DNA of 64,000 nt from Lachnospiraceae bacterium (GTDB lineage Bacteria; Bacillota; Clostridia; Lachnospirales; Lachnospiraceae): contig JAQXVO010000012.1 in assembly GCA_029224965.1 (NCBI GenBank), positions 1 through 64,000 on the forward strand. The letters are read 5' to 3'. Shown piece by piece: positions 22,552 through 28,472 of the stretch (positions are counted from its first letter, which is position 1; each line of letters begins with the position of its first letter). The notes beneath the pieces are model-generated. The model saw only the letters and a program-made list of their open reading frames with translations, made no database searches and had not been told where the DNA came from. The position numbers were made by a program, and so were the translations under genes.

Positions 22552-23925
22552 CTACTGTTCACCCTTGAGGACCTCGATGGCCTTCTGCACCTGATTGTCC
22601 TTGGTCCAGTCATAGGCCGAACTGCTGTCACCGGTATATTCCAGCTCCAGCTTGATATCCGGTTCAATGCCCTTGCCCTGGATGCAGACGCCGCTCGGCG
22701 TATAGTAGCGGGCAGTGGTCAGCTTGACCGCACTGCCGTCGGACAGAGGCAGGGTGGTCTGCACGATGCCCTTGCCGAATGTCTTGGTTCCGATCACGGT
22801 TCCCTTCTTGAAATCCATGACGGCGCCGGTGAAGATCTCGGCCGCGCTGGCTGTATTCTCATTCACCAGAACAGTCATCGGCATATCCAGCTGCTTCTTG
22901 TCATCCGAAGTATAGTTGGTCCGCTTGCCGTCTTTATTCTTGGTATAAACGACTGTTCCCTTGGGTAGGATGTCGTCGAGGATGGCAACCACGGAATCGA
23001 CCATGCCGCCGCCGTTGTCCCTTAAATCAAAGACAATCGATGTCATGCCCTGCTTCTTCAGATCCTCCAGAGCTTCTTCAAATTCCTTCTGGGTTCCGTC
23101 CGAGAACTGGGAGATCCGGATGTAGCCGATCTTATCCGTCAGCATCTGATGGGATACCGAAGGCACAATGACCTGCTCCCTGGTAATTTCGACGGTCTTT
23201 TCCACTCCGTCCCGAAGATAGACCATGGTGAGCTTTGTTCCCTTCTTGCCGCGGACCCTCTGAACGAAGTCATCCAGGCTTTCCTGATCCGCTTCTTTAC
23301 CGTCGGCCGAGACAATGGTGTCGCCGGCCTGAAGGCCTGCCTTTTTAGCCGGGGAGTCATCATAGACCTGAACAATGGAAACTGCCTTGGTATCCTTGTC
23401 CTGGGTCAGGACCGCGCCGATGCCGGCATAGTCGCCGGACAGGCTGACCATGAGCTCCTGATATTCCTTGGCTGTGTAATATTCGGTATAGGGATCGTCC
23501 ATGCTTTCCATCAGGCCCTTGTAGAGGCCGGTCGCCTTGGCGGAATCGCTCACGTCCTTATAGTAATAGTCGTCGATAATGGAAGAAAGCATATTGAGCT
23601 TGGTCTGTGTCTTTGCACTTAAGAAGCCGTTCGGGCTGATGTGAAGGACCAGACTGGCACCGATACCAATCATGGTCACAAGAACCAGGGCGCTGACAAA
23701 TCCTGCCAGGAAGGTGTGACGCTTCTTTTTCTTCTCGGCCTTCTTTTCAGCTCTGGCCTTCTCCTCTTCCTGTGAAAGTACTTCTGTCCTTCCGGCTCTG
23801 CCTTCTTTCCGGCCGCCGTTTCTGGTGTCAGTTCCGGCTTCGATCTTCATTTCTTCCATCGGATCCCGGTCCGCATTCTGAGCAGAACCGGATTCTCTTC
23901 GATCCTGATTTCGTTCTTCATCCAT
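22552..23925 (-). CDS. S41-family C-terminal processing peptidase
   Basis: PDZ domain plus DLRDNGGGMVDSVVAI, NENTASAAEIFTGAVMD. Confidence 0.93.
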   Translation of the reverse strand: MDEERNQDRRESGSAQNADRDPMEEMKIEAGTDTRNGGRKEGRAGRTEVLSQEEEKARAEKKAEKKKKRHTFLAGFVSALVLVTMIGIGASLVLHISPNGFLSAKTQTKLNMLSSIIDDYYYKDVSDSAKATGLYKGLMESMDDPYTEYYTAKEYQELMVSLSGDYAGIGAVLTQDKDTKAVSIVQVYDDSPAKKAGLQAGDTIVSADGKEADQESLDDFVQRVRGKKGTKLTMVYLRDGVEKTVEITREQVIVPSVSHQMLTDKIGYIRISQFSDGTQKEFEEALEDLKKQGMTSIVFDLRDNGGGMVDSVVAILDDILPKGTVVYTKNKDGKRTNYTSDDKKQLDMPMTVLVNENTASAAEIFTGAVMDFKKGTVIGTKTFGKGIVQTTLPLSDGSAVKLTTARYYTPSGVCIQGKGIEPDIKLELEYTGDSSSAYDWTKDNQVQKAIEVLKGEQ

Positions 23926-23957: not shown

Positions 23958-24866
23958 TCACACCTTCAGATGCCGCTTCAGAGTCACCCGGCTTCCGATA
24001 TAGCCGATGCCGACACCTAAAAGGAGGGCAATCGGAAGCAGGAAATGGAAGATCTCCTTTTCCGGCACGAAGTCCACCAGATTGCTTAAGAAGGTAAAAC
24101 GGTTCGAAATATAGGCCAGGATTTTCTGATAGAGAAACCAGAGGATGGTCAGGGGAATCAGCGAACCGATCAGTCCGATGACTACACCTTCGACAACGAA
24201 AGGCGCGCGGACGAAGCTGTCCTTAGCGCCGATCAGCTTCATGATGGCGATCTCATCCTTGCGGACGGAGACACCGACCGTGATGGTGTTGGAGATCAGG
24301 AAGGCTGCGACTGCAATCAGAATCGCGATGACAGCCACCGAGATCAGGGTCAGGAGGCGGTTGAAGTCGGTCAGAGTCCGGGCAGCCGCCTTGGACTGGT
24401 TGACCTTGCGGACCCCGTCCAGCTTCTGCGCATAATTTACGAACTTCTCCTGCTGAGAGACATCCTTGAGATAGACCTGATAGTTGGCGGAATTCGCCAT
24501 AGGGTTGTCATCCTTGAAGGTCTCGGCCGCCTCGGAATCGCCCTTGAAGTATTCCTTCTGGTACTCGGCCCAGGCCTCATCGGCCGAAACGTAGACCATC
24601 TTGTCGACTTCCGGTCTGGCCTTGATTTTGGCTCCGATCGCATCGATCTGGTCCTGGGTCAGGCCCTCGTTAAAGAAGACGGTAACCGATACGCTGGATT
24701 CGGCGTCCTTCACCATGCCGCGGAAGTTGGCACCGATCGAATAGAAGAGACCAAGAAGGAAAATGCAGGCTGCCATGGTTGCAATGGAAGCCATGGAGAA
24801 CATCTTGTTTCGCCAGATGTTCTTGAAGCCCTGTTTGATATTATAAAAGATACTGCTGATTTTCAT
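23958..24866 (-). CDS. ftsX: Cell division protein FtsX
   Basis: IKQGFKNIWRNKMFSMASIATMAACIFLLG, FtsX extracellular domain and C-terminal TMs. Confidence 0.95.
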   Translation of the reverse strand: MKISSIFYNIKQGFKNIWRNKMFSMASIATMAACIFLLGLFYSIGANFRGMVKDAESSVSVTVFFNEGLTQDQIDAIGAKIKARPEVDKMVYVSADEAWAEYQKEYFKGDSEAAETFKDDNPMANSANYQVYLKDVSQQEKFVNYAQKLDGVRKVNQSKAAARTLTDFNRLLTLISVAVIAILIAVAAFLISNTITVGVSVRKDEIAIMKLIGAKDSFVRAPFVVEGVVIGLIGSLIPLTILWFLYQKILAYISNRFTFLSNLVDFVPEKEIFHFLLPIALLLGVGIGYIGSRVTLKRHLKV

Positions 24867-25546
24867 TATAAGTCCTCATCCTCCGGTTCTACATCACTGA
24901 TCAGGGAACCTCTCTTGATCGTAATCACACGCTTCTTCATGCGCTCAACGATCTCCAGATTATGGGTGACGACAAGGACGGTGGTTCCTCTCTTATTGAT
25001 CTCATCCAGGAGACCCATGATCTCCCAGGCGGTATGATTATCGAGATTTCCGGTCGGCTCATCGGCCAGGATGACACGGGGCCGGTTGACCAGGGCCCGG
25101 GCTATGGACACACGCTGCTGCTCACCGCCAGAAAGCTGACGGGGCAGAGACCGGTACTTGGCAGCCAGTCCGACCATGGACAGAACCTGAGGCACCTTCT
25201 TCTTAATCTCACGATTGGAAGCCTCGACGACCTTCATGGCGAAGGCAACATTCTCATAGACATTCCGGTCCGGAAGGAGACGGAAGTCCTGGAAAACGCA
25301 GCCGATATTTCTTCGATATTTGGGAATGGAACGATGTTTGATTCCGGCCAGGTCCTTGCCGTTGACGACAATCCTGCCCTCGGTCGGGGGAAATTCATCC
25401 AAAAGAAGCTTGATCAGTGTAGATTTACCGGAGCCGCTCGCACCGGTTACAAAAACAAACTCACCCGGATGGATGTGCAGACTGATATCGTTCAGGGCAG
25501 GGACTCCCGCCTGATACGACTTACTAACATGTTCAAGTTTGATCAT
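24866..25546 (-). CDS. ftsE: Cell division ATP-binding protein FtsE
   Basis: [53 protein letters not shown]; adjacent to ftsX. Confidence 0.96.
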
Positions 25547-25563: not shown

Positions 25564-26673
25564 TCAGAAATTATGGTCCTCCATATAATTCATATACTCT
25601 ACCACCATCAGGGCAATTTTGAAAGTGATGGCGTCCTCGAAGACACGGAGATCCAGGCCCGTAGCCTTCTGCAGCTTATCCAGCCGGTAGACGAGAGTAT
25701 TTCTATGAATGTAAAGCTGACGCGAGGTCTCGGATACATTCAGATTATTTTCGAAGAACTTATTGATAGTTGTGATGGTCTCTTCATCGAAATCGTTCGG
25801 GGTCTTATCCTTGAAGATTTCCTTGATGAACATCTTGCAGAGCGGAATCGGCAGCTGATAGATGAGCCGTCCGATGCCAAGTACCGAGTAGGCAATAACA
25901 TTCCGGTCCTTGAAGAAGATTCTTCCGACATCCAGAGCCAGGGAAGCTTCCTTGTAGGACTGGGAGACGTCCTTGATTTCATTGACAATGGTACCGTAGG
26001 CCACACGGACATTCCGGTCCGGTACGCCATGGAAGAGATCAACGATCGTATTGGCAATCTTCTGGACATCATCGTAGGTATCTCCGGGCTTGAGCTCCTT
26101 TACGATAATGATGTTCTGCTCGTCGACAGCGGTGACGAAATCCTTGGAACGTCCGCTGAACAGAGTTCTGACACGCTCCATGTCGTCTCCGTCCTTGTCA
26201 TCGCCGACTTCAACAACCATGACGATCCGGCGGGCTTCAATGTCCACATGCAGGCGGGTTGCCCGGTTATAAATGTCGACCATAAGGAGGTTGTCCAAAA
26301 GCAGGTTCTTGATGAAGTTATCGCGGTCAAAGCGCTCCCGGTAGGCCACCATGAGTTCCTGGATCTGGAAGGCCAGGATCCGGGCCGCCGTATAGGCTTC
26401 CTCGGAATCTCCCTGGGCAATGACAATAAACTCCAGCCTCTGCTCATCAAAGACCTTCATGTAGTGACATCCGAAGATGGTCTGGCTGTCGGCATCGGAG
26501 CCTGCAAAGCTTCGCGCCGAATCCACATACCGCCTGGTATCCTCCATAGTTGTAGCAAGAATTCCGCCTTCTGAATCTGTCACAGCAAAGTTTTTCTTTG
26601 TGATTTGTGTCAACCCGTCAAGAGTTTTCTGCAGAACCTGATTAGATACCACGATCGCATCCCCCAATTCCAT
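25564..26673 (-). CDS. CdaR/PucR-type transcriptional regulator
   Basis: C-terminal HTH NLNVSETSRQLYIHRNTLVYRLDKLQKATGLDLRVFEDAITFKIA. Confidence 0.87.
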   Translation of the reverse strand: MELGDAIVVSNQVLQKTLDGLTQITKKNFAVTDSEGGILATTMEDTRRYVDSARSFAGSDADSQTIFGCHYMKVFDEQRLEFIVIAQGDSEEAYTAARILAFQIQELMVAYRERFDRDNFIKNLLLDNLLMVDIYNRATRLHVDIEARRIVMVVEVGDDKDGDDMERVRTLFSGRSKDFVTAVDEQNIIIVKELKPGDTYDDVQKIANTIVDLFHGVPDRNVRVAYGTIVNEIKDVSQSYKEASLALDVGRIFFKDRNVIAYSVLGIGRLIYQLPIPLCKMFIKEIFKDKTPNDFDEETITTINKFFENNLNVSETSRQLYIHRNTLVYRLDKLQKATGLDLRVFEDAITFKIALMVVEYMNYMEDHNF

Positions 26674-26922
26674 ACTCGTAACTATACACATTCAACAATT
26701 CCACTGGAATGTTTTATGGTACTTTTACCATATCTTGTTCCAGTTTAATATAAATGCACGAAAAATGGAATACCTCTTTGAATGAATTTATGCATTTTTT
26801 ACAGTTACACTCCTGTCAAGCAGAATTTTCCGGATTCGGTGAATTTTGTCATCATTTAACAAAACAGCCGTTCTTTTTTCCGCCCTCGTCATTTTTTAAC
26901 GCTCTCCGGATTTTGTGCATAA

Positions 26923-27006
26923 TGTGGATAATTCTGTGTATAAGTCGGTTTTTCGGCCTTTCTGATGTGGAAAAGTTTTGCAGTTTCCGTGGATAACTGT
27001 GGATAA
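26923..27006 (+). promoter_or_regulatory. Cluster of five DnaA-box-like 9-mers
   Basis: TGTGGATAA 26923, TGTGTATAA 26935, TGTGGAAAA 26966, CGTGGATAA 26988, TGTGGATAA 26998, same orientation. Confidence 0.65.
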
Positions 27007-27077: not shown

Positions 27078-27110
27078 GACAAAAAGGGACCTCATACGAG
27101 GTCCCCCATT
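27078..27110 (-). terminator. Rho-independent terminator of the NlpC/P60 gene
   Basis: Minus strand GGGACCTCGTATGAGGTCCCTTTTTGT. Confidence 0.8.
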
Positions 27111-27131: not shown

Positions 27132-28472
27132 CTAGTTCAGCACTCTGCGGACAGATACAATCGGCCTGTAGTTAATGTTGGAGTACTTGATACCGGTTCT
27201 CGGGTTGGATGCATTGATCATCTGTCCGCCGCCGGCATAGATACCTACATGACCGCTGTAGCATACAATATCGCCAGGCTGGATTTCAGATACACTGACA
27301 CCTCTTCCTGCAGAACGCATTGCAGAAGAAGAATGAGGAAGGCTGACACCGAACTTCGAATAGACACTCATAACGAATCCAGAGCAGTCCGTACCGTTTG
27401 TCAGGCTGCTTCCGCCGTAGACATAAGGATTGCCAAGGAACTGGCTGGCATAGCTTACAACAGCACTTCCGGATCCGCCGCTCGGAGCAGAATAGGTCTT
27501 TCCGGCTGATGCACTGCCAGTACTCCTGGAAGAACTCTTTGCTGATGCATTTGCTGCTGCCTTTGCTGCTGCCTTTGCTGCTTTTGAAGCGGCTGCCTGT
27601 CTCTGGGCAGCGGCTGCCTGCCTCTGAGCTTCAGCTGCGGCAGCTGCAGCAGCTGCCTGTGCCTGCCTCTGGGCCTCTTCCGCTGCCAGACGTGCCTGCT
27701 CTGCAGCCTTGGATTCAGCATATAAGAAGCTGGTTGCTACAGCAGAAACGTACTGACGGCTAACATAGCCATTTCCGGCATCTGTTGCAACGCCAACCCA
27801 GTCCGGATTGGAATTATCTACAACAGAAAGTTCCGTTGTTCCAGCCACCATGGTAAGCACCTGGGCATTTTCATCTGCTGCAGTACGAACCCGAAGGGTC
27901 GGAGTATTGACTGTTACCTTATTCTGAGCAATGGAATTTACCCGATTTTTATCACCGACAATCAGATAATCCTTCTGAACGTAACCGGTGACATCACCGG
28001 ATGTGATATTATACCAGTCACCTTCCAGACTGTTGACGGTAGCAACATCATTATAATAAAGCTTTCCGGCATAATCGCTGTTGGCATCCGGAGCAGTCCG
28101 GACAAATACGTAATCACTAACATTGGCAACTGCCAGTTTCGAATAGCGGGCCTCCTCTTCGGCTGCGGCATTTGCTGCTGCTACAGCTGCAGCATCCTGA
28201 GCTTCCTTTTCTGCAGTGATCTTAAGATCCGCTTTATTCTGGGAAGATACTGTAATCTTCGAAAGCATGGCAGAGACACCGGCTCTGGTAGATACCGATG
28301 AAGTCTGGATTACCTTTGCGGCCTTTTCTTTAGTGCTTGCGATGGAAGAAGCTGTCAGACTGGATGCTCCGGCAAGAGGAGCAGCTCCGGCTGTGAAAGA
28401 ACTTCCAGCAATCATAGCGCTGGCTGCGATCGTAAAAGTTGCCAGGTTTCTAAATTTCTTACTTTGATTCAT
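27132..28472 (-). CDS. SH3-domain NlpC/P60 cell-wall hydrolase with Ala/Gln-rich linker
   Basis: Signal peptide, two SH3-like repeats, low-complexity AAAAEAQRQ linker, NlpC/P60 domain (GNPYVYGGSSLTNGTDCSGFVMSVYSKFGVSLPHSS, GHVGIYAGGG). Confidence 0.93.
   Translation of the reverse strand: MNQSKKFRNLATFTIAASAMIAGSSFTAGAAPLAGASSLTASSIASTKEKAAKVIQTSSVSTRAGVSAMLSKITVSSQNKADLKITAEKEAQDAAAVAAANAAAEEEARYSKLAVANVSDYVFVRTAPDANSDYAGKLYYNDVATVNSLEGDWYNITSGDVTGYVQKDYLIVGDKNRVNSIAQNKVTVNTPTLRVRTAADENAQVLTMVAGTTELSVVDNSNPDWVGVATDAGNGYVSRQYVSAVATSFLYAESKAAEQARLAAEEAQRQAQAAAAAAAAEAQRQAAAAQRQAAASKAAKAAAKAAANASAKSSSRSTGSASAGKTYSAPSGGSGSAVVSYASQFLGNPYVYGGSSLTNGTDCSGFVMSVYSKFGVSLPHSSSAMRSAGRGVSVSEIQPGDIVCYSGHVGIYAGGGQMINASNPRTGIKYSNINYRPIVSVRRVLN

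Follow-up and report, generated by a model that had tools for sequence, protein, structure and literature searches.

Introduction

Clusters of binding sites (boxes) for DnaA, the initiator of chromosome replication, have been described outside oriC in both B. subtilis and E. coli. For B. subtilis, an excerpt of PMC5295017 (citing Okumura 2012) reports that the removal of six such clusters leads to early initiation, and an excerpt of PMC4447404 gives ywcI/vpr, gcp/ydiF, trmE/jag, ywlC/ywlB, yqeG/sda, and yydA as the strongest sites. In E. coli, datA is a non-coding DnaA-box cluster outside oriC that is combined with a site for a second protein, namely IHF, and DARS1 and DARS2 each possess a short DnaA-box core, to which DARS2 adds accessory sites for other proteins (PMC5295017, same excerpt). 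Among clostridial origins, oriC1 and oriC2 of C. difficile contain clusters of TTWTNCACA boxes (PMC7561715).

Results and Discussion

The element analyzed here lies in a window of 64,000 nucleotides, which is the whole stretch of DNA under study, and consists of a DnaA-box array followed by a conserved motif that we designate M. Its parts and the neighboring genes are as follows:

27132..28472, minus strand: gene for an NlpC/P60 + SH3 cell-wall hydrolase, the most conserved neighbor of the element
27084..27107, minus strand: intrinsic terminator of the NlpC/P60 gene, which separates this gene from the element
26857..27006, minus strand: whole element (DnaA-box array and motif M), 150 bp, between two genes
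26998..27006, minus strand: extra upstream DnaA box TTATCCACA, exact; present in L033, degenerate in L034
26988..26996, minus strand: extra upstream DnaA box TTATCCACG
26966..26974, minus strand: box A TTTTCCACA, placed by alignment in the box A columns of A1/A3; A-B distance 31 bp
26935..26943, minus strand: box B TTATACACA; family consensus AGTTATACAC
26923..26931, minus strand: box C TTATCCACA, exact
26914..26922, minus strand: box D TTATGCACA, abutting box C
26859..26873, minus strand: motif M GAACGGCTGTTTTGT, conserved, ~40 bp beyond box D; family consensus RAACRNNYGTTTTGT
25564..26691, minus strand: gene for a PucR/CdaR-like regulator (GGDEF_2 + HTH_30), the first gene downstream of the element
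24866..25546, minus strand: gene for an FtsE-like ABC ATPase, the name FtsE being based on the linkage to ftsX
23958..24866, minus strand: ftsX
22552..23925, minus strand: gene for an S41 (CtpA/CtpB-type) protease, with prfB next in order

The array thus comprises six DnaA boxes on one strand within 93 bp, only two of which (2/6) have the exact sequence TTATCCACA. Five of them had been listed in the initial annotation, the coordinates, strand, and intervals (12, 31, 22, and 10 bp) of which are all correct; box D (TTATGCACA, 26914-26922, minus strand) had been overlooked and adds an interval of 9 bp. The flanking genes are indeed co-directional, both lying on the minus strand, but the cluster is not upstream of the NlpC/P60 gene as had been implied: It is located 3′ of the terminator of this gene and 5′ of the PucR/CdaR-like gene (cdaR in the following), after which come ftsE-ftsX-ctpA-prfB. 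This regulator gene heads the ftsE-ftsX-ctpA group and has homologues in 59/60 genera, which adjoin ftsEX in the loci that were read.

As a box array with a presumed site for a second protein, the element has the same outline as E. coli datA and DARS2 (PMC5295017, excerpt): Like datA, it is a non-coding DnaA-box cluster outside oriC, and like DARS1 and DARS2 it has a short DnaA-box core. The likeness to datA is one of outline only, the accessory part being an IHF site in datA and the palindrome M in the element. In the cores of DARS1 and DARS2, the boxes face in opposite directions; boxes A-D of the element are arranged in tandem. With the B. subtilis clusters, the element shares the grouping of DnaA boxes outside oriC, but none of the sites listed in the excerpt of PMC4447404 is beside hpf or, judged by gene names, beside an NlpC/P60 gene, and the main text of that paper makes no mention of yvyD. 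Moreover, neither a fixed architecture nor an accessory palindrome is described for the B. subtilis clusters in the excerpts, unlike what is found for the element. In its way of working, the element is of a known kind, yet it sits at none of the B. subtilis cluster positions given in the PMC4447404 excerpt. The clostridial origins are box clusters as well, and the core of the element resembles the array at oriC of its own genome; in contrast to an origin, the element is not located at dnaA and has neither a DnaA-trio nor a skew switch. Within the openly licensed literature, we found no earlier description of the element, no relevant paper joining Lachnospiraceae and DnaA boxes, and, at the level of titles and abstracts, no relevant paper on DnaA and hpf in Clostridia.

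Boxes of similar order and spacing are found upstream of cdaR in nine congeneric genomes and in loci from close genera. For a search of the entire family, a sequence-only profile (R1) was built from 20 elements beside cdaR, namely that of the window and those of close relatives. In this family, taken as Lachnospiraceae on account of near-identical proteins in named records, R1 has a match (E ≤ 0.01) in 229/250 genera, each represented by one genome, mostly in the form of a single strong, full-length, intergenic copy; the E-values are rough owing to a shortened calibration, and 21/250 genera, some of them with nearly complete genomes, gave no match. Conservation, which the initial annotation had named as a check on its reading, therefore reaches well beyond what had been envisaged there. 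In the search of its own genome, the element of the window, itself a member of the R1 training set, is matched at 26857-26974 on the minus strand (70.2 bits, E 1.6e-19), and the box pair at 26988-27006 lies upstream of this match and is lineage-specific. Inspection of 90 genera identified NlpC/P60 as the neighbor on the box A side in 49 of the 81 proteins scanned and, on the other side, hpf in 36/83 and a cdaR-like gene in 7, with the nearest open reading frames at median distances of 208 bp and 227 bp, respectively. Because the NlpC/P60 and hpf neighbors lie beyond the knowledge of the model, they provide independent support for the R1 matches. An early scan of the regions upstream of cdaR had suggested a clade-specific cluster; this was abandoned, as the profile search located the element elsewhere in other genera, usually still beside NlpC/P60. 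One locus (L060, JAMPCA010000009.1) is titled Muribaculaceae and contains a cdaR-like gene that is 64% identical to the Lachnospiraceae one; it probably belongs to a mislabelled or contaminated MAG.

At the level of the class, a second profile (R2), built from 90 elements, matched 205/393 genomes at E ≤ 0.001, which is an upper estimate since many matches cover the boxes only and the window's own family is included. Class-level matches below ~30 bits were not counted as the element because scores of 17-28 bits are also reached by oriC and by the promoter region of dnaD-dnaI. In other families, hpf is downstream in 16 of 40 newly fetched loci and in 10 loci fetched earlier; none of these 40 loci is beside dnaA or dnaN, and none of them gave a match to dnaA, dnaN, dnaD, or dnaI. 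The neighborhoods point to a position between NlpC/P60 and hpf as the ancestral place of the element. A comparison with Rfam yielded no family at or above the gathering score and nothing near the threshold. We consider it fairly probable that the cluster belongs to an ancient type of non-coding element in clostridial chromosomes, of which it is one copy, with a role in the control of DnaA.

The architecture of this element is fixed: The consensus of the 90 genera reads AGTTATCCACA - N29 - AGTTATACAC - NNAG - TTATCCACA - TTATCCACA - ~40 bp - RAACRNNYGTTTTGT, which corresponds to box A, 31 or 41 bp, box B, 12 bp, box C, 9 bp, box D, and then M. Boxes B and C are 12 bp apart in 86/90 elements of the family and in 59/62 from other families (145/152). 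The distance between A and B is quantized, amounting to 40-42 bp in most family members and to 30-32 bp in most others, with 31 bp in the window and single cases at 22 and 51 bp, so that the steps correspond to about one helical turn. For the helical phasing that had been proposed in the initial annotation, the single locus offers weak evidence (10.5 bp, R = 0.93, p ~0.015), whereas the 31- and 41-bp A-B classes of the relatives, combined with a B-C distance of 12 bp, support it. Motif M is a perfect 18-bp palindrome, ACAAAACANNTGTTTTGT, located 11-12 bp after box D in 15/60 elements from other families, as obtained from a model-free scan with no profile for M, in which shuffled sequences scored at most 13 of 16; within the window's family, the left half of M is degenerate. 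In L320 (2182-2274) and L317 (2273-2378), palindrome M runs on into inverted arms that look like DnaA boxes (AAATCCACAAAACAAGTGTTTTGTGGATTT and a nearly identical sequence), and by the look of these arms M might be derived from a pair of inverted DnaA boxes.

The chief rival to a role of the element in controlling DnaA itself is that hpf, or whichever gene lies downstream, is transcribed under the control of DnaA and would in this way be tied to the replication cycle, like sda and ywlC in B. subtilis. In favor of such transcription control, the gene downstream has the same orientation in 67/86 loci, at a median distance of 227 bp, it is hpf in 36/83 loci of the family and in 26 from other families, and DnaA regulates several B. 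subtilis genes from clusters of this type (PMC4447404, excerpt). Moreover, among the placements beside NlpC/P60 one orientation is kept in 55/60, with reversal in the other 5, which represent five further genera, and because orientation and neighbor are retained to this extent a role in local transcription is conceivable. However, the element lies well upstream of the start codons and is kept despite differing downstream genes (hpf, cdaR, WecG-type, ATP synthase D, and others). It is also kept when inverted in place: In L096, L077, L121, and L131, the element as a whole, M included, is turned around with respect to cdaR, and in L096 and L077, of which both sides were read, the inverted element is still found between NlpC/P60 and cdaR-ftsEX. 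A promoter element serving one gene should as a rule keep this gene and its orientation, so the changing genes and orientations count against it, and control of one adjacent gene explains the element poorly. Regulation of cdaR was rejected as a general explanation, as most genera have other downstream genes. We regard transcription control as unlikely, though it deserves serious consideration, and are similarly doubtful that its targets would be hpf ancestrally and cdaR-ftsEX-ctpA in the window.

A different alternative concerns motif M, which may be an SOS operator, in which case the element would combine binding sites for DnaA with control of the locus by LexA. Indeed, the core AAC-N4-GTT occurs both in the family form of M, RAACNNNYGTTTTGT, and in the LexA box of clostridia, GAACNNNNGTTT (PMC4234289), and the family form also resembles AGAACAGATGTTTG upstream of lexA in the window's own genome. 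Yet, in comparison to LexA operators (CGAAC-N4-GTTCG; clostridial GAAC-N4-GTTT), this core is common whereas the outer bases differ: The outer GTTTTGT is near-invariant in M and does not resemble the GTTCG half found at lexA, the full palindrome in other families has ACAAAAC and not CGAAC, and ~25/86 copies have AAAC-type left halves instead of GAAC. We deem a LexA operator at M improbable. The upstream region of lexA itself (L155; C8:52150-52746) contains CGAACTTCTGTTCG and AGAACAGATGTTTG, both of which are likely LexA operators by their sequence.

That the element serves as a second origin of replication, or is what remains of a former oriC, is highly improbable. This idea draws on the B-C-D core, which is similar to the box array of oriC in the same genome (23.8 bits). 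That oriC, however, is located at C21:72699-72769 between rpmH and dnaA, on a contig other than that of the window, and possesses its own boxes; the order of the locus, jag-yidC-rnpA-rpmH-dnaA-dnaN, is the usual one, and a normal origin is hence present. GC skew in the window is negative on both sides of the cluster, with no switch of sign. Near 90 relatives, runs resembling a DnaA-trio do not exceed the length seen in shuffled sequence, and the intergenic region of the window contains none. The cluster as oriC is ruled out, since it neither adjoins dnaA/dnaN nor shows a skew switch nor has a DnaA-trio, which bears out the initial annotation on this point.

A chance grouping of DnaA-like 9-mers can practically be dismissed, for although DnaA boxes are short and have 501 matches at ≤1 mismatch across the genome, the observed density was reached in no simulation and the conservation across family and class refutes this explanation. 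The window contains 19 box matches at ≤1 mismatch, 6 of which fall within 93 bp. When the window was simulated 400 times with its local dinucleotide composition kept, the densest 100 bp held ≤2 boxes (6 observed), and 20,000 simulated versions of the intergenic region (440 bp) gave a maximum of 2. Genome-wide counts, obtained by pattern and profile searches, amount to 53 TTATNCACA sites in the 2.0-Mb assembly, 4 of them in the cluster of the window. By simulations and counts alike, clusters this dense do not arise at background frequency, a point on which the initial annotation had made its reading depend. Other dense spots in the same genome are oriC, the dnaD-dnaI promoter region (C24:11869/11947), and C25:33781-33873. 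Between murC and dnaD-dnaI, the DnaA boxes GTTATCCACTTTATCCACA and ACTTATCCACA are present (L133 3860-3956; own genome C24:11869-11955), and other genomes of the family have weak R2 matches close to a dnaI-like gene; these sequences suggest that DnaA boxes upstream of helicase-loader genes may be widespread. The spot at C25:33781-33873 (L132 4782-4874), which lies upstream of a gene for a short-chain dehydrogenase, contains three TTATNCACA sites in a span of 93 bp and is a further candidate DnaA-box cluster.

The B. subtilis clusters are oriC-proximal, and the same is true of the element in 19 relatives, on which this statement rests, as the window's own dnaA is on another contig: In these 19 assemblies, which have both on one contig, the element is 35-985 kb from dnaA, corresponding to 1.4-16.4% of the genome, where contigs with dnaA at the first bases were treated as circular and some genome sizes are rounded. 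A KS test of these distances gives p = 5e-9 (7e-8 with 15 genera). The distance list does not include three single-contig genomes (G319, G390, G609), the matches of which lack a link to hpf or NlpC; determined by hand, their distances to dnaA are ~6%, ~45%, and ~2% of the genome, respectively. The linkage to dnaA could arise partly from conserved gene order and not from selection on distance.

Conclusion

The preference of the initial annotation for a titration cluster or a DnaA-regulated locus over oriC is supported by the exclusion of oriC, the box density above background, and the matches in 229/250 genera. The variable neighbors and in-place inversions favor a titration or control element over regulation of adjacent genes. 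With reasonable though limited confidence, we therefore propose that the element is a site close to oriC at which DnaA assembles and is thereby limited or modulated, in the manner of the B. subtilis clusters or E. coli datA/DARS; judged from its sequence, it is probably a control switch for the timing of DNA copying that has so far been overlooked. In the proposed mechanism, DnaA would bind A-B-C-D cooperatively on one helix face, away from the origin, and a second, dimeric protein at palindrome M, possibly of the LexA-type winged-helix, would stabilize or gate the DnaA complex. As it is usually oriC-proximal, the element would be duplicated soon after initiation, and the doubled sites would then withdraw DnaA or change its nucleotide state, by which re-initiation would be restrained.

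More tentatively, and with considerable doubt on our part, A-B-C-D and M may serve throughout Clostridia as a site at which DnaA assembles with an M-binding protein and which controls the activity of DnaA and not merely its free amount. If this is true, A-B-C-D and M would be a Gram-positive counterpart of datA/DARS and a type of control that is not known in B. subtilis, for which, according to the excerpt of PMC5295017, no regulator of the DnaA nucleotide state has been identified. Replication timing in Clostridia, a major group of gut bacteria, has been little studied. The element would point to a DNA-binding protein that recognizes M and, being present in about nine out of ten sampled genera of the family as well as class-wide, it would offer a ready target for distinguishing DnaA titration from switching in Gram-positives.
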